Positions 10,577-47,491 of a stretch of DNA of 64,000 nucleotides are shown one piece after another. Under the pieces are notes generated by a model. That model saw only the letters and a program-made list of their open reading frames with translations. It had not been told where the DNA came from and ran no database searches. Position 1 is the first letter of the stretch. Every line of letters starts with the position of its first letter. Location of the stretch: NCBI GenBank assembly GCA_014879445.1, contig JACSSC010000058.1, positions 1 to 64,000 of the forward strand, written 5' to 3'. This stretch comes from Candidatus Competibacteraceae bacterium. GTDB taxonomy: Bacteria; Bacteroidota; Bacteroidia; CAIKAF01. Both the position numbers and the translations under genes were made by a program.

Positions 10577-13500
10577 CTATGCTTTCACTTCTGCAAGCAG
10601 CGCATCTAGTTGTTCTTCGCTCAAACTGTCAATATCTTGCATCAGAGCTCCACTTTGTATCACCTTTTCAATGACGATGGAAGCAAGTTGCGACACATTA
10701 GGGCCACTTAAAAGTTCCATTGTACTCACATCAACGCCAAAGCGTGCCGAAATGGCTCTTCCTAACTCAACTGCGATTAAGGAGTCAACGCCCAAGAAAT
10801 TGATACCTCTGGATTTATCAATTTTTTCGACTGAGAGTTTCAATACATTAGCAAGTTGTTCGGCAACTGCATTTTCAACATATACAGTTCTTTCGTTATC
10901 AGCAATGATAGAAAGCTCTGCAGCAAACTCATTCAACTTGCTACCGGCACCAGCTGATGCACCGCGTGTTTCGGCAAGATGACGAAAACGAGACGACTGC
11001 GCACTCTTAGGATTGATTGAACTCCAACGCGACCAATCCACATCAAACATGCCAACCTGAGCAGGCGTAGTTTCGATAACTTTCATCAATCCTTCAATGG
11101 CTTCGCGTGTTGTGAAACCAAAGATGCCACCACTCTCCAATACAGCAGTAACATTGGCATCGCGTGCAGCCACACCTACTTCACCTAAGACACCTAAGTT
11201 AATGGTGCTTGCCTGCATTCCATTGGCTCTTCTGAAATGAGCAAACTGATCGAGGAAAGTGTTGGATGAAACATAGTTTGCCTGTCCGGCATTACCAATA
11301 AGAGCCGAGATAGAGGAGAAAGATATAAAGAAGTCAAGCGGTATCTTTTTTGTAAATTTATGTACATTAAGCAACCCTCCAACTTTAGCATGGTAAGAAG
11401 TAACAAATCGTTCATGCGTCATATCCACAATAAATCCATCATCAAGCACAACTGCTCCATGAATGATTCCTTTGAGAGGAGGCATCTCATTCTGTATCTT
11501 ATTGATGATGCCGGCAACAGCATCTGCATTTGTAATATCAATAGGTTCGGCATAAACCTTAACGCCTTTTGATTCCATATAACGGATGGCTTCTTTAGCT
11601 TCATCCGATTTAGCGCCACTTCTACTCGCCAGTACTAACTGAGCTGCTCCTTTATCGGCGAATGCTTTGGCAATCTGTAACCCAAATCCTCCGGTTCCTC
11701 CTGTTATCAGATAAGTAGCATTTTTTTCAAATGTTTTGCCTGTTGATTTAACAGGCACATCCACTTCCTGATGTTGGAATTGAATCACTACTTTTCCAAT
11801 ATGCTTAGATTGTAGCATAAAGTTAAAAGCTTCAACAGCATCAGAAGCATTAAATAAATGAGTGTTGACTGCTTTAAAAACACCATCTTCATAAAACTTC
11901 TCAATATTGCGGTGTATCTGTTGCACAACCTGTGGCCGCTCCATCATTAATCGATCCACGTCAATACCATGGAATGTAATATTGTTATTGAATTGCTGCA
12001 TGGGTAATCCTGTGTTCTCTGTGATATCGCGTTTGCCAATTTCAACAAATCGGCCATATGCAGCCAGTAATTCGAATGACTGATAAAGCGATTCTCCGGC
12101 AATGGCATTCAACACCACATCTACCCCGTATCCATTGGTATCCGCTTTAATCTGCTTTACATATTCAAGCGAACGTGAATCATAGATATTTTTAATACCC
12201 AATTGACGAAGATATTCTCTTTTCTCTTCGCTTCCTGCTGTAGTAAATATTTCGGCGCCTACATATTGCGCATACTGAATAGCCGCTAAACCTACACCAC
12301 CTGTTCCATTGTGAATCAGGATTTTTTCTCCTTTTTGCAGTTGAGCCCGATTGCGCAAACTGTACAATACAGTCATGTATGGAACCACCATCAATGCATC
12401 TTCAAATGCAATATGCTTGGGTTTGCGCAAATAATAAGTCGGTACGGATACAACATAAGAGCGTAAACATCCTTCAGGTGCTGCTAGAATAATTTCCTCT
12501 CCCACCTTAAAATCTGTCACATTAGAACCCACACGTGTAATCACACCGGCAGCTTCGTGACCGATATTTCTTTCGTAGTATGAACCCTGTGTTGCTTTTT
12601 CAGACAACTGACCAATCACTTTCAGTCCATCTTTGAGATTCAAACAGGCCGCAAAGTTTTTAATTTCAATTTCGTCAGGAGCTAACGATTCTTTGCGTTC
12701 AAATTCATCGTAATATAAACTATCTAAGCGTCCAATTTGAGCAACCTCTAACGAAACAGGCACATCTGTACTGACACGTTTTGTTTCAGTTCCTGATTGA
12801 CCGTTTAGTGAAAGTGCAGATAACATTCTGCCAAACCTTTTTTGCAGACGAATGGCTACATCCTCTTCTTTGCTTGATGAGATTATTTCGGCAACAAGTA
12901 TTTTGAATTCATTCTCTTCAGAAATTTGGTGTAGATCAATCGTTTTGGGTGAAATGGCAGGATTTTCATTACCAATCAAATGGTTTAATCCCCAAAAAGC
13001 TGACGTTTCCAAAGAAATGCCTTTATCATCTCCAACAACTACCTGCACACCACGTGTTACGATGATAAGACGCAGTTTATCGGCAATTTGAATACGAGAT
13101 AAAGCTTTAGCCATATAGACCACAGGCATGGTCTGATCTACAGCTGTTTCCATAGAGATATCATCCGCAAGACCTGAAGTTTCGAGCGACCAGGTATATA
13201 ATATATGTTGTGGTATTACTTCAGCAAACAAGCGATCATAATCTTCTTCCACATTTGGTCGAATAGAAATCAATCCCTCATCATTACTATATGCATCTCC
13301 TTTGGTAACAATAATAAAATCTATACCTTTTTCATTTAGTTCTTGCAATAAATCAATGTTATCGTAATCGCCAAACACCATATATTTCCCTGCTGCCTGA
13401 GTATGGTCATTTGCTGCTAATGACTCTAGTTCGTGCCATGTATATTCATAAAAACAATTGGCCATCTTATCACCTTCCTCATTCCTATTGCTTTGTATTG

Positions 13501-16500
13501 CTTGACAAGTAATGCCTTCAAGCGATACCATCACTTCGCCATTATCGTCAAACAGCATCAGGTCACCTTTAATGGTATTTGAAGTAACATCAGTAATGCG
13601 ACACCAGCACCAACATTCATTTAATGGGCTGGTATAAAACACCACTTCATCAATGGATACAGGAACGAAAGGATTGGGATTTTGACTTGTATCGCCAACA
13701 ATAGCAACCATGGATTGAAAACCTGAGTCAAGGATTGATGGGTGAAGCAAATAATTATCGACATTCCGTATAAGAGAAGAGTGCCCTTCTATTTTTGCCA
13801 AAACTTCCTGCTGCCCTTTAAAAATTTCTTTTACACCTTGAAACCAAGGGCCGTAATTTAAGCCACGTTCAGATAGTTGTGTATAAAACAATTCGGCATC
13901 GGCCTGTTTTGAACAGCGATTGCGAACATCAGCAAAAGAGACAATGGGTACTTTTCGAGAAATAGAATCCTTAAGCATACGTCCGCTTGCATGCAGTGTC
14001 CAGGGAGAATTGTCTTCGCGGAATCTGCTATACACACTATAACGATTGGTTTGAGGATTAAAGGATGTATGAAACATCTGTATGCGTTTTTCATCCACTA
14101 CCAAAACCTGATTAAATTCCAAATTCTGCAGTGTGCATACCTGAGTAGAGAATTCTTTTTCATGAAGAGCTAGGCCCGCTTCAACATATGCAGCACCAGG
14201 TATAACCGTCATGGCTTCAATCTTATGATCATCCATCCAAGGCATAAAATAGCGGTTGATTTCAACCTCCCATGCCGGATAAGGCATATGCATATTGTTA
14301 TTCATGAATACATGACCGGGCACGCCCATTTTATCCTCGACAGAGGCCAGGGATTCTTGCCAGTAAACCTCCTTGTCCCATGCGTAAGTAGGAATTTTTA
14401 TGAACTTTCCGCCTGATGTGAATGGAGTCCAATCAACTTGCACATCGAGTGTATGCAAAGCGCCGAAAGAGTTCAATAATGTGGGTAATTCGGGATCGCC
14501 ACGACGTAATGACGGAATAGTATAGCCCTTTTTGTCAGCAGCTGTGAGACATTCATTGATATTGGTGCGGAGTACAGGATGCGGCCCCACTTCGAGAAAT
14601 AGAGTGTAGCCGTCGTTTACAATAGTTTGAGCAGCTTTGGCAAATCGAACAGGTTGACGCACATTTTGCCACCAGTAGTTATTGTCAAACTCAGTACCAT
14701 TCATAATGGTACCTGTAACCGTTGAGTAAAGAGGTATAGTTGCCTTTTGTGGTGCAACAGATTGAAGCGAATGAAGAAGTTCCTGATGAAGCGGATCCAT
14801 TTGATAGCTATGATAAGCCACTTCAACTGTCAGCATTTTATTGAAAATATTTTGTGGAGTAAGTACTTCACTGATTTTCTCAAGTGCATTTCGAGTTCCG
14901 GCAATCGTAACACCATTAAAGGAATTAATAGCGGCAATCGAAATTTCATTTTCGAGTTTTTGATCGCGGATGAGCTTATCTGCCGCATCCTCACCCAAAC
15001 CGATAGCTAACATAGTTCCTTGTCCGGCTGTAGTTTGCTGACAACGACTTCTGTGATAACTCACCAACACACCTTCTTCGAGTGTAAGAGCGCCTGACAC
15101 GTATGCTGCAGGTACTTCTCCAACGGAGTGACCTACTACGGCATGTGGTTTCACTCCCCAACTATTCCATAAGTCGGTAAGTGCTGCCTGAATGAAGAAG
15201 TTTGCCGGCTGAGCAATGGCTGTTTCGTTCATCCGTGATTCATTTTCTGGTTTCATCATTTCATCAAGCAACGACCATCCAGTAATATCTTTGAAAATCT
15301 TGTCGCAACGGTCAATGGTGTTCTTAAACACCGGTTCAGAAGCATATAATTCACGCCCCATAGCCCACCACTGTGGCCCCATTCCTGTAAACACAAATAC
15401 GAGTCGGTTATTTTCCTGTGCCTGATTAAAGCTAACGCCGGTTAGCATTTCACCTTGGGCATATGCCTCTAATTTTTCAATCAGCTCATTTCGATCAGCA
15501 GCTACTATTGTTACCCGATTAAGATGGTGAGTACGGCGATAAGCCAACGTATATGCAAAATCGACAAGAGAGACAGGATTTTTCTTCAGATAATCGGCAT
15601 ATTTTCTACAAATACTTTTCAATGCGTTATCGCTTTTGGCAGAGATAGGAAAAACACGGAGTATATTTTCTTTTTCTTTTTCCTGTGTATTGAAAGATGC
15701 CAAATAATCGCGTGGTGGTTCTTCCAACACCATGTGTCCGTTTGTGCCACCATAGCCAAAAGAATTGATGGATGCTAAAAGTTTATCTTGGTTATCAAAG
15801 GGCTCTGGTTTGAGAGCAACTTTAAGTGATAATGATTCAAAATTGATTTTTGGATTCGCTTTTTTGAAGTGCAGATGTGGAGGAACTAAGCGTTTGTTTA
15901 CTAACAATGCAGATTTAATAATACCGGCAATACCGGCAGCTGCTTCTAAATGCCCTATATTGGTTTTTACAGAACCTACAAAAACTTTATCATTAGTTCC
16001 ACGACCTTCACATAACACATTGTTGAGAGCAGTAATTTCAACAGGATCACCGGCTTTTGTTCCTGTTCCATGTGCTTCTACATAGCGAATATCCGAAGCA
16101 TTGATGCCTGCTTTAGCATACACTTCACGGATTAAAGCTTCCTGCGCATCAGGATTGGGAACTGTGATACCGTTTGTGGCGCCATCCTGATTGGATCCGG
16201 TGGCTCTTACGCATGCATAAATATAATCTCCGTCGGCAATGGCTTGACTAAGCGGTTTGAATACAACAACACCAACACCTTCGCCACGAACGTATCCTCC
16301 TGCATCTTCGTCAAATGCTTTGCATCGTGCGTGCTTAGAGAGGAACTGCCCTTTACTCATCGCAATTGGATATTCAGGTCGTAACATCACATTCACACCA
16401 CCGGCAATGGCCATCTTGCTTTCGCCGGTCCAAATGCTCATGCAGGCATAATGCGCTGCAACCAACGCCGAAGAGCATGCCGTATCAATCGTTAGTGATG

Positions 16501-17026
16501 GTCCACGCAAATCAAACGAATAAGAAATGCGATTTGATAACATTACCATAGTGGACGAAGTAGCTGTATGCTGTCCAATCAAGTCGCGATTTAGCACGCC
16601 CAACTGCTGCATTTTATTATCCAAACAAAATCCACCAATAAATACACCAGTTGCCGACCCCTTCAATTCTTTTTCAGTTAATCCGGCATCCTCAAACGCT
16701 TCCCATGTTGACTCTAACAACAATCGTTGCTGAGGGTCAAGAATGGCAGCTTCACGTGGCGACATGCCAAAAAATAAGGGATCAAACTCATCTAATTTTA
16801 ACTTCAGAAAACCCATTTGAGGCTGGTGCGTTTTGCCCGGGCGATCAGAATCGGGATCATAAAAACGACGCATGTCCCAACGGTCGGCAGGTACGTCAAC
16901 AATACAGTCGGTTCCCTCGGCCAACAATCTCCAAAACTCTTCCGGCTGTGTAGCACCTCCTGGAAAACGTAATCCTATCCCAACGATTGCGATGGGCTCA
17001 AAGGACAAGTTAGTTGTATCACTCAT
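10577..17026 (-). CDS. Single-module, fully reducing type I polyketide synthase (KS-AT-DH-psiKR-ER-KR-ACP)
   Basis: A 2149-residue multidomain synthase. KS is at about 8-440 (C184 in DTACSS, H319, H359). AT is at about 540-860 (S634 in GHSVGE; specificity motif VAYH at 736-739). DH is at about 905-1180 (H934 in HKIEAMTVIP, D1100 in HPSILDSGFQ). A structural pseudo-KR is at about 1195-1420, ER at about 1430-1750 (GTGGVG at 1574), KR at about 1770-2000 (GGTGGFG, Y1918, LDD motif) and ACP at about 2050-2125 (S2082 in GVDSL). There is no methyltransferase, loading or thioesterase domain. The order is that of animal fatty-acid synthase, MAS-like and fungal highly reducing synthases, so iterative use making a saturated or partly reduced chain is likely but inferred. 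The start at 17026 (MSDTTN) is preferred over 17068. It stands alone: flanking genes are not biosynthetic. Confidence 0.95.
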   Translation of the reverse strand: MSDTTNLSFEPIAIVGIGLRFPGGATQPEEFWRLLAEGTDCIVDVPADRWDMRRFYDPDSDRPGKTHQPQMGFLKLKLDEFDPLFFGMSPREAAILDPQQRLLLESTWEAFEDAGLTEKELKGSATGVFIGGFCLDNKMQQLGVLNRDLIGQHTATSSTMVMLSNRISYSFDLRGPSLTIDTACSSALVAAHYACMSIWTGESKMAIAGGVNVMLRPEYPIAMSKGQFLSKHARCKAFDEDAGGYVRGEGVGVVVFKPLSQAIADGDYIYACVRATGSNQDGATNGITVPNPDAQEALIREVYAKAGINASDIRYVEAHGTGTKAGDPVEITALNNVLCEGRGTNDKVFVGSVKTNIGHLEAAAGIAGIIKSALLVNKRLVPPHLHFKKANPKINFESLSLKVALKPEPFDNQDKLLASINSFGYGGTNGHMVLEEPPRDYLASFNTQEKEKENILRVFPISAKSDNALKSICRKYADYLKKNPVSLVDFAYTLAYRRTHHLNRVTIVAADRNELIEKLEAYAQGEMLTGVSFNQAQENNRLVFVFTGMGPQWWAMGRELYASEPVFKNTIDRCDKIFKDITGWSLLDEMMKPENESRMNETAIAQPANFFIQAALTDLWNSWGVKPHAVVGHSVGEVPAAYVSGALTLEEGVLVSYHRSRCQQTTAGQGTMLAIGLGEDAADKLIRDQKLENEISIAAINSFNGVTIAGTRNALEKISEVLTPQNIFNKMLTVEVAYHSYQMDPLHQELLHSLQSVAPQKATIPLYSTVTGTIMNGTEFDNNYWWQNVRQPVRFAKAAQTIVNDGYTLFLEVGPHPVLRTNINECLTAADKKGYTIPSLRRGDPELPTLLNSFGALHTLDVQVDWTPFTSGGKFIKIPTYAWDKEVYWQESLASVEDKMGVPGHVFMNNNMHMPYPAWEVEINRYFMPWMDDHKIEAMTVIPGAAYVEAGLALHEKEFSTQVCTLQNLEFNQVLVVDEKRIQMFHTSFNPQTNRYSVYSRFREDNSPWTLHASGRMLKDSISRKVPIVSFADVRNRCSKQADAELFYTQLSERGLNYGPWFQGVKEIFKGQQEVLAKIEGHSSLIRNVDNYLLHPSILDSGFQSMVAIVGDTSQNPNPFVPVSIDEVVFYTSPLNECWCWCRITDVTSNTIKGDLMLFDDNGEVMVSLEGITCQAIQSNRNEEGDKMANCFYEYTWHELESLAANDHTQAAGKYMVFGDYDNIDLLQELNEKGIDFIIVTKGDAYSNDEGLISIRPNVEEDYDRLFAEVIPQHILYTWSLETSGLADDISMETAVDQTMPVVYMAKALSRIQIADKLRLIIVTRGVQVVVGDDKGISLETSAFWGLNHLIGNENPAISPKTIDLHQISEENEFKILVAEIISSSKEEDVAIRLQKRFGRMLSALSLNGQSGTETKRVSTDVPVSLEVAQIGRLDSLYYDEFERKESLAPDEIEIKNFAACLNLKDGLKVIGQLSEKATQGSYYERNIGHEAAGVITRVGSNVTDFKVGEEIILAAPEGCLRSYVVSVPTYYLRKPKHIAFEDALMVVPYMTVLYSLRNRAQLQKGEKILIHNGTGGVGLAAIQYAQYVGAEIFTTAGSEEKREYLRQLGIKNIYDSRSLEYVKQIKADTNGYGVDVVLNAIAGESLYQSFELLAAYGRFVEIGKRDITENTGLPMQQFNNNITFHGIDVDRLMMERPQVVQQIHRNIEKFYEDGVFKAVNTHLFNASDAVEAFNFMLQSKHIGKVVIQFQHQEVDVPVKSTGKTFEKNATYLITGGTGGFGLQIAKAFADKGAAQLVLASRSGAKSDEAKEAIRYMESKGVKVYAEPIDITNADAVAGIINKIQNEMPPLKGIIHGAVVLDDGFIVDMTHERFVTSYHAKVGGLLNVHKFTKKIPLDFFISFSSISALIGNAGQANYVSSNTFLDQFAHFRRANGMQASTINLGVLGEVGVAARDANVTAVLESGGIFGFTTREAIEGLMKVIETTPAQVGMFDVDWSRWSSINPKSAQSSRFRHLAETRGASAGAGSKLNEFAAELSIIADNERTVYVENAVAEQLANVLKLSVEKIDKSRGINFLGVDSLIAVELGRAISARFGVDVSTMELLSGPNVSQLASIVIEKVIQSGALMQDIDSLSEEQLDALLAEVKA

Positions 17027-17492
17027 AATGTATCGAACAATATAGATTAAGCCCTGCTTACGCAGCACTAAGGTTTTTTAACAATTTTGCAAAAATATAA
17101 TGAAATTTTGTAGTTTAAAAGCAAATGCATGCAATAATATCAAGTTTCGATTATATAATTTTGATTTTCAAACATATATCTCTCTATCTGCTTAGGATTT
17201 GAGTCGGAAAATTCAGCGTTGCAAACGCCGCGTAAAGGCAGATGCATACTCATTTTGGTTGGGAGTAAAACTTTTGTGGCCGGTATGATGTTAGTAGGGA
17301 ATAATAATAAATCAAATTGAGATGAAATTTGTTCAATGCAACCAAAAATCAAATTCGCCTGTAAAATAACAGGTGGCACATATAGGGGGTGTCGAAAATT
17401 CATCTTACTAAAAACACTTAAAGCGGAAGATTTATTTTCAAAAAGTATGCCAATCGCTTATTTTAGCAACAAAATCATAATTCAAAATTGAC
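17027..17492. other. Gene-free stretch between the PKS and the DUF6132 gene
   Basis: This stretch must contain the promoters for two divergent genes. On the minus strand a TATTTTTG (17097 to 17090) fits the -7 consensus and would place the PKS transcript start about 57 bases before its ATG, but no good -33 element is visible at the normal distance. An 87-codon open frame on the minus strand (17140-17403) shows no protein-like features. Nothing else is evident. Confidence 0.5.
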
Positions 17493-21570: not shown

Positions 21571-21894
21571 TTACATGTTTAAAAACATCCGGCCTTCTTC
21601 CGAAATCATATCATAATTCCAGGCCGGCTCAAATGTCAATTCAATATCTGCTTCATACCCGGCAAAAGCATCCTGAATAGCAAATTTTGCAGCATCGGTG
21701 ATAGATTCACCCATTGGGCAAAACTGTGTAGTAAGCGTCATCGTGCATACAATCTTCTTTTCCTCTTCAAAAAAATCAATCTGATATATCAAACCTAAAT
21801 CTACAATGTTCAACCCAATCTCCGGATCAATAACTTTTTTCAACGCCTCTGATGCCCTACGGGATAGTGACGGATTATTACTAACGATTTGCAT
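21571..21894 (-). CDS. MIP18 family (DUF59) iron-sulfur assembly factor
   Basis: 107 residues. VIDPEIGLNIVDLGLIY at the N terminus and the conserved cysteine in TLTTQFCPMGESI mark the SufT/PaaD/MIP18 family, which helps Fe-S cluster maturation. It overlaps the end of the membrane protein gene upstream by 14 bases and precedes the Rrf2 gene by 3 bases. The operon context suggests a role in maturing or repairing Fe-S proteins under nitrosative or low-oxygen conditions; this is inferred. Confidence 0.93.
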   Translation of the reverse strand: MQIVSNNPSLSRRASEALKKVIDPEIGLNIVDLGLIYQIDFFEEEKKIVCTMTLTTQFCPMGESITDAAKFAIQDAFAGYEADIELTFEPAWNYDMISEEGRMFLNM

Positions 21895-23185
21895 AGCGAT
21901 TACTTTTTTTAAGTGTGATAATAAAAAACAAGTGTAGCAGGTAACTAACAGATGCTACCAATAGTCCGGCTGAACCGGCATACATCAATTCTTGAAGCTG
22001 CCATACTATTCCTATGGCAAATAGCATCGCTCCAAGAAGATAACTTATAAGCATGATTTTGAAAAGCAAAGGATGAAACATATCCTTAGGATTTGGCACT
22101 TTTTGTGAATCCTTGTTATGCAACTGATACAAACGATTCCAGACAATAAATGGAAGCGTCTTGAATGTCATACCCATTATCAAAGAGCTTATCCAACCAA
22201 AGAATAGAATAAAACCATACAACAGAATAACCGGATTAGACAACTGTACGCCGGCAAAAAAAAGGAATGTAAACAATAGTGCCAGGCCGCTAGGAATTAT
22301 AAGAGCTACTATTGAAAATAACGATAAAGCCATCGGATTCTCTACTTTTTTTCTAATCCGGTTTTGGTAGGCCCGATAAATATAATAGGCAAAAAGTAGA
22401 ACCGCCACAAACATCAGCACGGATGGAATAATCAAATAATAGGAAGGTGTATAGAGATACAGAAAAACAAACAGCACCAAGGCCACATTCATTAACCAAA
22501 AGATTGACCATAATATGGCTGGCCTACTGTATTTAGAAATTAAAAACATCGGAATCAATCGTGCTGCAACCCCTGTAATGAGCATCAAAAACCAACCCGC
22601 CAACCCTGCATGTGCATGCAATGGTAAATATTGCAATGAATCCAATCGAAATACACGATATCGAAAATTCAGCACCAACAAAAATCCCAAAACTATAGTA
22701 ATCATCAACCAAACAGCAGAAGAGAAAATAAAAACGGCATGTACATTTTCAGTTTGTGATTGTACCATGCTCTTGCCCATATTAATCATGAAAGCAAAAA
22801 CTGAAAGTATAATCAGTACACTGCCAATCGGCGCCAGCAGCGCCATATCAAAAATATAAAATCCCCAAACCAGCATTGGAATTCCCAATGCAGCTAAAGC
22901 AAATGTAACATAGCCCAAGGTGATGCTATACAATCGTCCTTCTATCAACACGGGAACCAATTGATGCGCTGCGCCAAAAATCACCATCGTTCCCCATCCC
23001 AATGCCATGGTATGTGTAATGGCCAGCAACGAGGGCGTGAAATAATGCCCTGCAAAATCAGATACTGACAGCCATAAAAAAACACAAGAAAGTACAAATG
23101 AAAATCCGCCATACAGATAAAAAGGCAATACAATGCCGTGGGCCGTAGTGCGATTGGATAAGGAATTTACAGGAACAGCAAACAT
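21881..23185 (-). CDS. Polytopic membrane protein, NnrS / heme-copper oxidase subunit I-like
   Basis: 434 residues with about twelve hydrophobic helices. Histidines within or beside helices (THTMALGWGTM, GAAHQLVPVLIEGR, LPLHAHAGLAGWF) recall heme-copper oxidase subunit I and the haem-copper NnrS proteins. The full set of oxidase ligands is not apparent, so it is probably not itself a terminal oxidase. Proteins of this kind occur in Bacteroidota clusters for nitric oxide metabolism. It starts 2 bases after the DUF2249 gene ends and overlaps the MIP18 gene. A role in NO tolerance or haem/copper handling is inferred. Confidence 0.75.
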   Translation of the reverse strand: MFAVPVNSLSNRTTAHGIVLPFYLYGGFSFVLSCVFLWLSVSDFAGHYFTPSLLAITHTMALGWGTMVIFGAAHQLVPVLIEGRLYSITLGYVTFALAALGIPMLVWGFYIFDMALLAPIGSVLIILSVFAFMINMGKSMVQSQTENVHAVFIFSSAVWLMITIVLGFLLVLNFRYRVFRLDSLQYLPLHAHAGLAGWFLMLITGVAARLIPMFLISKYSRPAILWSIFWLMNVALVLFVFLYLYTPSYYLIIPSVLMFVAVLLFAYYIYRAYQNRIRKKVENPMALSLFSIVALIIPSGLALLFTFLFFAGVQLSNPVILLYGFILFFGWISSLIMGMTFKTLPFIVWNRLYQLHNKDSQKVPNPKDMFHPLLFKIMLISYLLGAMLFAIGIVWQLQELMYAGSAGLLVASVSYLLHLFFIITLKKSNRYANR

Positions 23186-23187
23186 GC

Positions 23188-23997
23188 TTATTCTTTGAAA
23201 ATTATCAAATGAATTTCATTTTCAGATATTTCTTTTGTGGCATAAGAGTATCCCTTTTCATACAACTCCGGAAGAAGATACACAGGTATGCGTTTATGAT
23301 ATACAAATAAGGCCTGTCCTACTTCAAGTTGTTGTATGGCTTCCAAAATTGAAATCATGGGTAATGGCATTTCTAAATTTCTAACATCCACCGTTTGAAA
23401 TTTTCCGTCAAACCGCTGTATGGCATCATCCCAGTTTACTGCTTGAGCATCTTCACGTGGCACATCAGCAACCTCTGTTGCTCGATGATAAAAATAAGTA
23501 AGGATAACATCGCCCGTATGCTCCACATACGAGTCGAATCCTTTTTTTTTCAATAAGTGTATCAGCGGAACCGGCTCAAACGTATTGATGATTTTCAATG
23601 CATGCCCCGAAGGCAAGTCTCCTATTTGCTTTAATATAACCTCTAATGGATCATTCCCTGAAGCAATCATCGGGCGTACATCCATTTCAACCAGGTTGTT
23701 TACTTCTATTGCCTTGAGTACTTCGGGCATGGATGAATCTTTTTGTTCTTGCATATCTTCAATTTGTATTTGTTCAATTTCAAAACCCAACGATGCCATC
23801 TTTTGCATAAAATCTTCTATGCTGCACCCCCCGACCTTGCATGCCATACGTATGCTGGTGCGTGGAGTCATCAATTTACGTAATAACGGATTCCTTAATT
23901 TCTCAAATGATGGCGAAAGCGAAACTATGGCCTCCAAAGCATCTGGATGCGCTTTAATGAGCTTGTCAATACGAGTATCAGGATGTATCGAAATCAT
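23188..23997 (-). CDS. DUF1858 / double DUF2249 domain protein
   Basis: 269 residues. The N-terminal 75 residues (PDTRIDKLIKAHPDALEAI... ACKVGGCSIEDFMQKM) match DUF1858. Two DUF2249 units follow, about 105-175 (VEMDVRPMIASGNDPLEVILKQIGDLPSGHALKIINTFEPVPLIHLL) and 200-268 (VDVRNLEMPLPMISILEAI...), a fold related to TusA-like sulfur/iron handling proteins. These proteins accompany nitric oxide reductase and hemerythrin genes in other bacteria. It is the first gene of the operon. The start at 23997 (MISIHPD) is preferred over 24018 because the conserved domain begins there. Confidence 0.83.
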   Translation of the reverse strand: MISIHPDTRIDKLIKAHPDALEAIVSLSPSFEKLRNPLLRKLMTPRTSIRMACKVGGCSIEDFMQKMASLGFEIEQIQIEDMQEQKDSSMPEVLKAIEVNNLVEMDVRPMIASGNDPLEVILKQIGDLPSGHALKIINTFEPVPLIHLLKKKGFDSYVEHTGDVILTYFYHRATEVADVPREDAQAVNWDDAIQRFDGKFQTVDVRNLEMPLPMISILEAIQQLEVGQALFVYHKRIPVYLLPELYEKGYSYATKEISENEIHLIIFKE

Positions 23998-24042
23998 ATA
24001 ATGATTAATGATTATCACGCAAAGTAAATCATTCGATTCTAA

Positions 24043-46133: not shown

Positions 46134-46823
46134 ATGACGAATTTATTTATTTTTCCTTTTGGCGGAGGCAACGAAACTTCTTACGCTCGAATTACACAAT
46201 TGCTCCATCCATCCATTCATATTATCTCGGGTGAAAGCCCGGGTAAAGGACGACGAAATAAAGAACCATTGCTAAAAAACCTCTACCGAATGGCTGATGT
46301 TTTTTTTGAGCAATATGCGCAACAAGTGGATGAAAACAGTATCTTTCTTGGACATTCGATGGGTGCATATTTGGCCTATCTAATGGCTATCCGACTTCGT
46401 GATGAAAAACATACACTTCCCAAGCATCTTGTGCTTTCAAGCAAAATTGCACCTTCGCGCCACTTCAATAAGAAAAGAATGTTACTCACAGATGAGAAGT
46501 TTATTAAACACTTGAAAGAACTAGAAGGTATGCCGGATGCTATTCTTAGTAATGCTGAATTATTAACATTATTTTTACCCATCATTCGTGCCGACTTTGA
46601 TGCCTTAGATCAATTTAAATATATCCCTACTACCCCACTTCCAATTCCTATTACACTTTTTTGTGGCAATAGAGAAAATGTTCCCGACGAATGGCTTACC
46701 GACTGGAATAAAGAAACAACAGATTGCTTCGATTTTAAACGAATATCGGGCGGACACTTTTGGCTTTTCGACAACCCTGACCCACTCATTCAATGTATTC
46801 ACCAAATTGCAGGTATAAAATAA
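46134..46823 (+). CDS. Type II thioesterase
   Basis: 229 residues, alpha/beta hydrolase of the editing thioesterase family that frees stalled or finished acyl chains from carrier proteins of polyketide or peptide synthases. The N-terminal FPFGGGNETSY, nucleophile S75 in FLGHSMGAYLAY, the lid motif LPIIRADFDALDQF and His208 in SGGHFWLF are present. Where a catalytic Asp is expected (GxxD) the sequence reads CGNRENV, with Glu, which may substitute. It is 5 bases upstream of a phosphopantetheinyl transferase, and the only synthase in the window is the PKS at 10.6-17.0 kb. Confidence 0.9.
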   Translation: MTNLFIFPFGGGNETSYARITQLLHPSIHIISGESPGKGRRNKEPLLKNLYRMADVFFEQYAQQVDENSIFLGHSMGAYLAYLMAIRLRDEKHTLPKHLVLSSKIAPSRHFNKKRMLLTDEKFIKHLKELEGMPDAILSNAELLTLFLPIIRADFDALDQFKYIPTTPLPIPITLFCGNRENVPDEWLTDWNKETTDCFDFKRISGGHFWLFDNPDPLIQCIHQIAGIK

Positions 46824-46828
46824 AAATT

Positions 46829-47491
46829 ATGGAAGCATTCGTTGCATACACGTTCATTGATAATCTCAATCAACCCTTGCCCGATGCTGCGCTTAAAAGC
46901 TTGCCATCCATAATGAAAGACGAGATTAATTTGTACAAAATGAATGATGACCAAATTCGTTTACTCGCCGGAAAACGACTCCTTTATTATGCCCTTCAAA
47001 TAACAAATCATGAATCGGATATGATTCAGCAATATACCGTAGCACCAAATGGCAAACCATTCATACCCGGCTTTCATCCTTTCAATATCACTCATTCTGG
47101 AAACATTGTAGCTATTGCCGTATTATTAAGCAGAGGTGAAATTGGTATTGACTGCGAAATGATTCGACCTATTCAACCTTCATCATTCACTAAGCAATTC
47201 TCACCACCTGAAATGCAATGGATATTAAATGCGCAGCAACCACAACAACGATTTTTTGATGCCTGGACTATGAAAGAAGCCGTGATGAAAGCTGATGGAC
47301 GTGGAATGCGTATCCCCTTGCATCATATTCGACTGAAAAAAGATTATGCAACGATAGATGACAATCCTAATATATGGTTCCTTTATCCTTTATCTCTACA
47401 TCCAAATCACCCGGCACATCTTTGCTCTGATCAAGCCATTTCAAATATTAAAACTATACATATACTTACTAATGATCTATGGCTACTTTAG
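46829..47491 (+). CDS. Sfp-type 4'-phosphopantetheinyl transferase
   Basis: Transfers the phosphopantetheine arm from coenzyme A to carrier-protein serines. 220 residues, Sfp/Gsp length rather than the short AcpS type. The metal-binding motif reads GIDCE (usually GIDVE, with D and E retained), and the second motif is FDAWTMKEAVMKADGRG. FNITHSG is the conserved start of the second half. The ATG at 46829 follows the thioesterase stop by 5 bases; a start at 46793 would overlap the thioesterase. It is probably the enzyme that activates the PKS ACP at S2082. Confidence 0.93.
   Translation: MEAFVAYTFIDNLNQPLPDAALKSLPSIMKDEINLYKMNDDQIRLLAGKRLLYYALQITNHESDMIQQYTVAPNGKPFIPGFHPFNITHSGNIVAIAVLLSRGEIGIDCEMIRPIQPSSFTKQFSPPEMQWILNAQQPQQRFFDAWTMKEAVMKADGRGMRIPLHHIRLKKDYATIDDNPNIWFLYPLSLHPNHPAHLCSDQAISNIKTIHILTNDLWLL

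Follow-up and report, generated by a model that had tools for sequence, protein, structure and literature searches.

An apparently solitary single-module polyketide synthase of a Bacteroidota bacterium: dispersed partner genes and a probable route to sphingoid-type long-chain bases

Described systems and the locus under study

The first demonstration of bacterial sphingolipids derived from a polyketide synthase (PKS) dates from 2025 and concerns a Pseudomonas locus in which the genes are clustered (PMC12134224). There, in P. fluorescens MYb115, C24-C28 sphinganines are made by the iterative monomodular PKS SgaA together with the α-oxoamine synthase (AOS) SgaB, which accepts hardly any amino acid but serine; the ketone has been proposed to be reduced by a short-chain dehydrogenase/reductase (SDR) encoded nearby (PMC12134224). 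The gene described here encodes a single-module, fully reducing type I PKS and is located within the first 64,000 nucleotides of contig JACSSC010000058.1 of a bacterium assigned to the Bacteroidota, a stretch denoted below as the window. As judged from related genomes, this PKS probably builds the acyl chain in a PKS-AOS-SDR pathway that has dispersed genes and leads to a sphingoid-type long-chain base. The coupling of the PKS with its partner genes is well supported, and we infer the amino acid, the chain length and the final lipid. If true, the phylum, which is known for sphingolipids of the ordinary kind based on serine palmitoyltransferase (SPT), would possess two routes to long-chain bases. 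No published description of such a PKS in Bacteroidota was found in literature searches.

As in the PfSgaA-PfSgaB(-SgaC) system, a monomodular type I PKS, here presumed to be iterative, is combined with a pyridoxal phosphate (PLP)-dependent AOS and an SDR. However, the sga genes are clustered, whereas here the PKS, the AOS with the SDR, and a type II thioesterase (TEII) with a phosphopantetheinyl transferase (PPTase) are found at separate sites, and the SDR is of the extended type instead of a classical KDSR. In a Pseudomonas plasmid cluster the SDR is the fifth gene past the AOS, an arrangement that published locus tags also suggest for sga; the printed sgaAB primer sequences gave no match to this cluster, which is thus not established as sga itself. 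A PKS with an identical domain arrangement, followed by an AOS and an SDR, is also found in the RkpA-RkpG-RkpH (WcbR-type) system of Sinorhizobium meliloti (L178), whose RkpG is 47% identical to the AOS described below. This trio on pSymB, for which we assume the rkp gene names, adjoins capsule genes, whereas no such genes are adjacent here. The present pathway is not a strict member of the SgaAB/RkpAG type, since its genes are not adjacent (PKS on contig C51, AOS on contig C2), its SDR is of another type and its ketosynthase (KS) falls into a clade different from that of RkpA and the Pseudomonas plasmid PKS, both about 2500 residues long. Common to all of them are the single-module reducing type I PKS, a co-encoded AOS from the PKS-linked family and an SDR partner.

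Three further systems are comparable in part. The Swf proteins of sponge symbionts comprise SwfA, with the order KS-acyltransferase (AT)-dehydratase (DH)-enoylreductase (ER)-ketoreductase (KR)-acyl carrier protein (ACP), and the reductase-sulphotransferase SwfB (PMC3908369). The domain order is the same here, and Bryobacterales within the KS clade of the window possess a downstream thioester reductase, accompanied in L023 by sulphotransferase genes, but Swf employs another release enzyme and SwfA contains HATGT and IAFH versus HGTGT and VAYH in the window PKS. Mycocerosic acid synthase (MAS) and Pks2 are likewise colinear, including the pseudo-KR (ψKR) and the missing thioesterase (TE) domain, yet the window KS belongs to another clade, its AT is malonyl-type and no FadD/PapA genes were seen alongside. 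The SPT pathway of Bacteroidota also uses an AOS with conserved catalytic residues and a ketone reductase to arrive at long-chain bases; there, however, the acyl chain originates from a type II fatty acid synthase (FAS) and not, as proposed here, from a PKS.

Partner genes of the synthase

In the genome under study (G000; 2.69 Mb, 62 contigs, 100% complete) the window PKS is the sole multidomain KS protein, the second full KS being a 424-residue FabF-type enzyme. Relatives of the PKS are encoded by 11 more of the 16 family genomes and are 83–84% identical over the full length in sister genomes (congeners) and 63–76% in other genera; the reading frame is therefore not a chance one. Across the class (395 genomes, orthologues counted at ≥50% full-length identity, PKS fragments at contig ends in G002, G006 and G139 counted as present) the PKS occurs in 13 genomes, 12 of this family and G139 of another. 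Full-length AOS orthologues (≥66% identical, N-terminal extension included) are found in 12 of these 13 and nowhere else; in the remaining one, G012, a contig end truncates the AOS gene. The next-best AOS matches in the class do not exceed 40% and are devoid of the extension. The SDR gene following the AOS shows exactly the same distribution (13/395). The four family genomes without the PKS lack AOS, SDR, TEII and PPTase as well, and G027, a congener of G139, lacks PKS, AOS and SDR. At least two lineages, the family and G139, carry the gene set, which is unlinked in both. Within the clade the KS and AOS distances are correlated (r=0.69 for 16 loci, 0 of 20000 permutations, calculated without species-tree control).

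TEII and PPTase are encoded 29 kb from the PKS in the same window. Their orthologues were detected in 12/12 PKS-containing and 0/4 PKS-free family genomes and are always adjacent in the former. G139 contains a relative of the thioesterase (38%), and weaker relatives also occur in genomes without a window-type PKS.

Clustering of the neighbours at 77 related PKS loci, a survey the original prediction had suggested, depicts an AOS-class PLP enzyme as the commonest conserved neighbour, present at 23 of these loci from many phyla and usually 3–50 bp downstream of the PKS. It adjoins the PKS in Chitinophagales L048, the nearest relative of the window PKS outside the Flavobacteriales, while Flavobacteriales loci have no AOS-type neighbour beside the PKS. 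In Planktothrix (L176:3614-11212) and Streptomyces anthocyanicus (L177:6374-11197) a plasmid-borne PKS-linked AOS is fused to the PKS C-terminus; such fusions support a direct hand-over of the chain. The absence of biosynthetic neighbours claimed by the original prediction is confirmed for about 10 kb on either side of the PKS, where none were recognised in the window or in relatives, but does not extend to the TEII and PPTase further along the window or to the AOS and SDR on another contig. The suggestion that the PKS is functionally an orphan has to be abandoned in view of the distributions given above. Its alternative, one module of an assembly line split across the genome, applies insofar as the remainder of the pathway is encoded elsewhere; the partners are, however, not further PKS modules. 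In G005 PKS and AOS are located far apart on a single contig, in the other family genomes on separate contigs, and the gene order around the PKS differs between the genera of the family.

AOS enzymes join an acyl thioester to an amino acid with release of CO2, and in SPT the residues H, DxxH, K, R and S serve catalysis. All of these are kept in the AOS of the genome under study, as seen from its alignment to 3a2b; SPT is also the closest solved structure (260 bits). In the AOS tree the protein resides in a clade of 42 rows (100% support), almost all of them PKS-adjacent or PKS-fused, which is separate from KBL, BioF and SulA. It is 53% identical to a PKS-adjacent Pseudomonas AOS and at most 40% to the best ordinary AOSs, and is distinguished by the N-terminal extension MSEGKNLSVEEKKELLKKLMKEKA. 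It reaches none of the NCBIfam cut-offs for SPT, KBL and BioF (327 bits versus a cut-off of 640 for the Bacteroidota SPT model NF047600). Canonical Bacteroidota SPT (SPT_CFB) exceeds its cut-off in none of the 16 family genomes, and one control genome passes. As far as modelled SPTs are concerned, the PKS-linked AOS may be the only sphingoid-base enzyme of the family besides a SulA homologue. Further AOSs encoded in the genome are KBL, BioF beside bioB/bioD (bio names from sequence context) and a SulA-type enzyme (L145:1976-3235, corresponding to G000:C45:10475-11734), which matches cysteate-C-fatty acyltransferase SulA with 574 bits. SulA-type matches are found in nearly all family genomes, with and without the PKS, and these bacteria probably also make sulfonolipids of the capnine type.

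In the proposed pathway, the PPTase would attach phosphopantetheine to the ACP, and the PKS would iterate on malonyl units with full reduction of each β-carbon, leading to a long saturated acyl-ACP of presumed length; stalled chains would be removed by the TEII, as expected from its family, in a proofreading or rescue function. The AOS may then dock via its basic N-terminal helix (LSVEEKKELLKKLMKEKA), a candidate partner of the acidic helix at the PKS C-terminus, and release the chain as a 3-keto base through PLP-dependent decarboxylative condensation with L-serine or, less probably, another amino acid; the ketone of this base would be reduced by the adjacent SDR to a sphinganine-like amino alcohol destined for membrane or surface lipids. 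Co-occurrence and adjacency in relatives demonstrate the PKS-AOS partnership, whereas the reaction and the use of serine are presumed from sequence. More tentatively, and with somewhat less confidence than would be needed to expect it, we propose that a Bacteroidota lineage devoid of canonical SPT obtains its sphingoid bases from an AOS fed by a PKS, with the chain length set by the PKS, the genes at three or more chromosomal sites, and docking helices and co-inheritance in place of clustering. Cluster-based mining would miss such pathways, in which an apparently solitary PKS has unclustered partners.

Several observations weigh against the sphingoid-base pathway. The genes are unlinked in this lineage, and the pairing of PKS and AOS consequently rests on comparative evidence, in which the co-occurrence counts come from related genomes and are hence not independent. 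Within the same PKS clade other release partners are found, namely a thioester reductase (L023/L014), a methyltransferase (Verrucomicrobia) and a non-ribosomal peptide synthetase (NRPS); therefore, the product cannot be read from the PKS alone. The SDR belongs to an extended, HpnA-like type, unlike SgaC, a classical KDSR, the likeness to PfSga follows the published description and not the SgaA/SgaB sequences, SgaA having no placement in the tree, and the KS clade and size of RkpA and of the Pseudomonas plasmid PKS are different, as described above. A crude motif test of acidic PKS C-termini versus basic N-termini of the following proteins was not significant (p=0.057), and docking of the two helices is put forward as a hypothesis. 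The pathway as a whole is read from genes, with its chemistry deduced from them.

Alternative functions of the gene set

Among the alternatives, a variant of the PKS-AOS pathway itself uses alanine, glycine or another amino acid and would yield 1-deoxy-sphingoid bases or other α-amino ketones. The AOS family does not fix the amino acid, the protein being below the NCBIfam cut-offs mentioned above, but its closest solved structure is an SPT and the characterised PKS-linked enzyme PfSgaB is almost exclusively serine-specific (PMC12134224), which makes this variant rather unlikely. Less plausible still is that the TEII hydrolyses the long saturated chain to a fatty acid and that AOS and SDR serve another, co-inherited pathway. 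Such a function would agree with the saturated chain predicted as product and with the TEII gene, which within the family is distributed like the PKS and is also part of the window; on the other hand, PKS-linked AOSs directly adjoin the PKS at many related loci and are fused to it in Planktothrix and Streptomyces, AOS and SDR track the PKS exactly across the class, and TEIIs are usually editing enzymes.

A truly orphan iterative PKS producing a surface lipid or glycolipid with release by other means, as originally predicted, would fit the variable gene order between genera and the lack of recognised biosynthetic genes next to the PKS, yet is contradicted by the co-distribution of the five genes and by the AOS adjacency in relatives and has become very improbable. 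Hardly any weight is given to a MAS-like synthase of methyl-branched acids for esterification. MAS is the top full-length match among solved structures (995 bits) and Pks2 a top NCBIfam match (NF041183, 1259 bits), both from the shared domain order, but the cut-off of the Pks2 model is 2400 bits and the KS is positioned outside the mycobacterial Mas/Pps group in the trees, so that MAS/Pks2 membership was rejected. Moreover, methylmalonyl-specific ATs follow the pattern GHSQG/YASH, in contrast to GHSVGE and VAYH here.

Architecture, placement and surroundings of the synthase

The coordinates of the PKS, its domains and the partner genes are compiled below. The start methionine is used by several relatives as well.

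Location of the PKS, its domains and the proposed partner genes (window positions unless a contig or locus is given; aa, amino acid residues)
Feature	Position	Strand	Details and basis
Open reading frame	10577..17068	-	ATG at 17026, 2149-aa product
Single-module fully reducing type I PKS, KS-AT-DH-ψKR-ER-KR-ACP	10577..17026	-	2149 aa; reading frame and Pfam
KS	15707..16999	-	aa 10-440, C184/H319/H359; Pfam, alignment, KS trees
AT	14441..15400	-	aa 543-862, GHSVGE at 632, VAYHS at 736; Pfam, malonyl-type presumed from motif
DH	13487..14278	-	aa 917-1180, H934/D1100; Pfam, alignment
Structural ψKR region without methyltransferase domain	12881..13387	-	aa 1214-1382; PF21394
ER	11780..12745	-	aa 1428-1749, GTGGVG at 1574; Pfam, alignment
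KR	11186..11719	-	aa 1770-1947, B-type motif LDD at 1861, S1905/Y1918/N1922; Pfam, alignment
ACP	10679..10870	-	aa 2053-2116, S2082; Pfam, alignment
Acidic C-terminal helix of PKS, ...DSLSEEQLDALLAEVKA	10580..10633	-	aa 2132-2149; conserved in relatives, candidate docking element
TEII, RifR-like	46134..46823	+	PF00975, GHSMG; Pfam, best structure RifR
Sfp-type PPTase	46793..47491	+	PF01648; overlaps thioesterase gene
AOS	G000:C2:21483-22862; L132:8984-10363	+	459 aa; family search with L048 AOS
SDR	G000:C2:22881-23861; L132:10382-11362	+	19 bp after AOS

Pfam yields exactly the domains of the original prediction (KS PF00109, 292 bits, and PF02801; AT 267 bits; DH PF14765 and PF21089; PF21394; ER PF00107 and PF08240; KR 201 bits; one ACP PF00550) and, in agreement with it, no methyltransferase, TE or loading domain. 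The catalytic residues it named (C184, H319, H359, S634, H934, D1100, Y1918 and S2082) are all in place, and its view of a fully reducing, probably iterative module that is likely to supply a lipid with a long reduced acyl chain is judged to be right, iteration and length again being presumed. The DH motif reads HKIEAxxxxP with Ala where Gly is usual, a position taken by A, S, G or N in close relatives, and GHSVGE together with VAYH suggests a malonyl-specific AT.

A fungal-like character of architecture and AT motif, on the other hand, was not borne out. Against solved structures the KS-AT half scores 702 bits with CurL, about 580–630 with DEBS modules, 569 with MAS and 489 with LovB; for the DH-ER-KR half MAS is best (416 bits), followed by animal FAS, and LovB aligns solely via its KR (99 bits). 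Since MAS, CurL and DEBS all score above LovB/PsoA, kinship with fungal highly reducing PKSs was rejected, and the bacterial relatives typically have VAYH/VPYH as their AT motif. MAS owes its best full-length match to the identical domain order. A polyunsaturated fatty acid synthase (PfaA) was also rejected (391 versus a cut-off of 1010 bits). The KS phylogeny proposed with the original prediction, with references from Mycobacterium, Nostoc and Myxococcus genomes, assigns the window KS to a broad clade that comprises 62 of the 114 rows and consists of single-module PKSs from bacteria; the mycobacterial Mas/Pks2-like and Pps sequences sit apart from it, the Mas reference row (L109) being assigned from its position beside the pps genes and not from a family model. 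The divergent Nostoc KSs L102 and L105, for which heterocyst glycolipid synthase (HglE)-type is only a possible label, are far from the window. An IQ-TREE mixture-model tree is in agreement, with support of 96/84 for the window group plus Chitinophagales L048 and 100/97 for a 13-row clade.

Other members of the clade display different surroundings. L048:4736-19334 harbors a PKS-AOS-P450-amine oxidase-like-SDR cluster with a weakly KDSR-like SDR, which looks like a clustered, further modified form of the same pathway in the same phylum. In Bryobacterales (L023:16439-19739, L014:16265-17533) a stand-alone thioester reductase whose N-terminal helix is like that of the AOSs comes after the PKS and, in L023, precedes a sulphotransferase and a similar gene, resembling Swf clusters of sponge symbionts but outside sponges. 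In Verrucomicrobia (L021, L039, L041, L067, L075, L079) a conserved methyltransferase-domain protein of ~470 residues and then signalling and response-regulator genes follow the PKS, with neither an AOS nor a docking-like tail. In Paenibacillus and relatives (L065, L066, L070, L072, L081) a PKS of about 1850 residues directly precedes a very large gene (2164–3328 residues), probably an NRPS; these large proteins carry N-terminal basic helices like the AOSs, and acidic helices form the C-terminus of several of the preceding PKSs. Two more full-length single-module PKSs (33% identical) are encoded in another family of the class (G064:C11:328651-334926 and G064:C8:221485-227844); no AOS of the PKS-linked kind was found with them, and a thioesterase relative is encoded 13 kb from one of the two.

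Upstream of the PKS a conserved divergent gene for a metallo-β-lactamase-fold protein with two rhodanese domains is found in five Flavobacteriales relatives, at L005:8353-9804, L009:8304-9728, L011:8300-9724, L012:8353-9771 and L019:8405-9850. Being of the persulfide-dioxygenase type and missing next to the PKS both in the window and at most g2 loci, it was judged incidental and rejected as a partner. Finally, a minus-strand run at 21571-24018 of the window, with an iron-sulfur-assembly domain, a weak COX1-like match and DUF1858/DUF2249, is perhaps a respiratory module.

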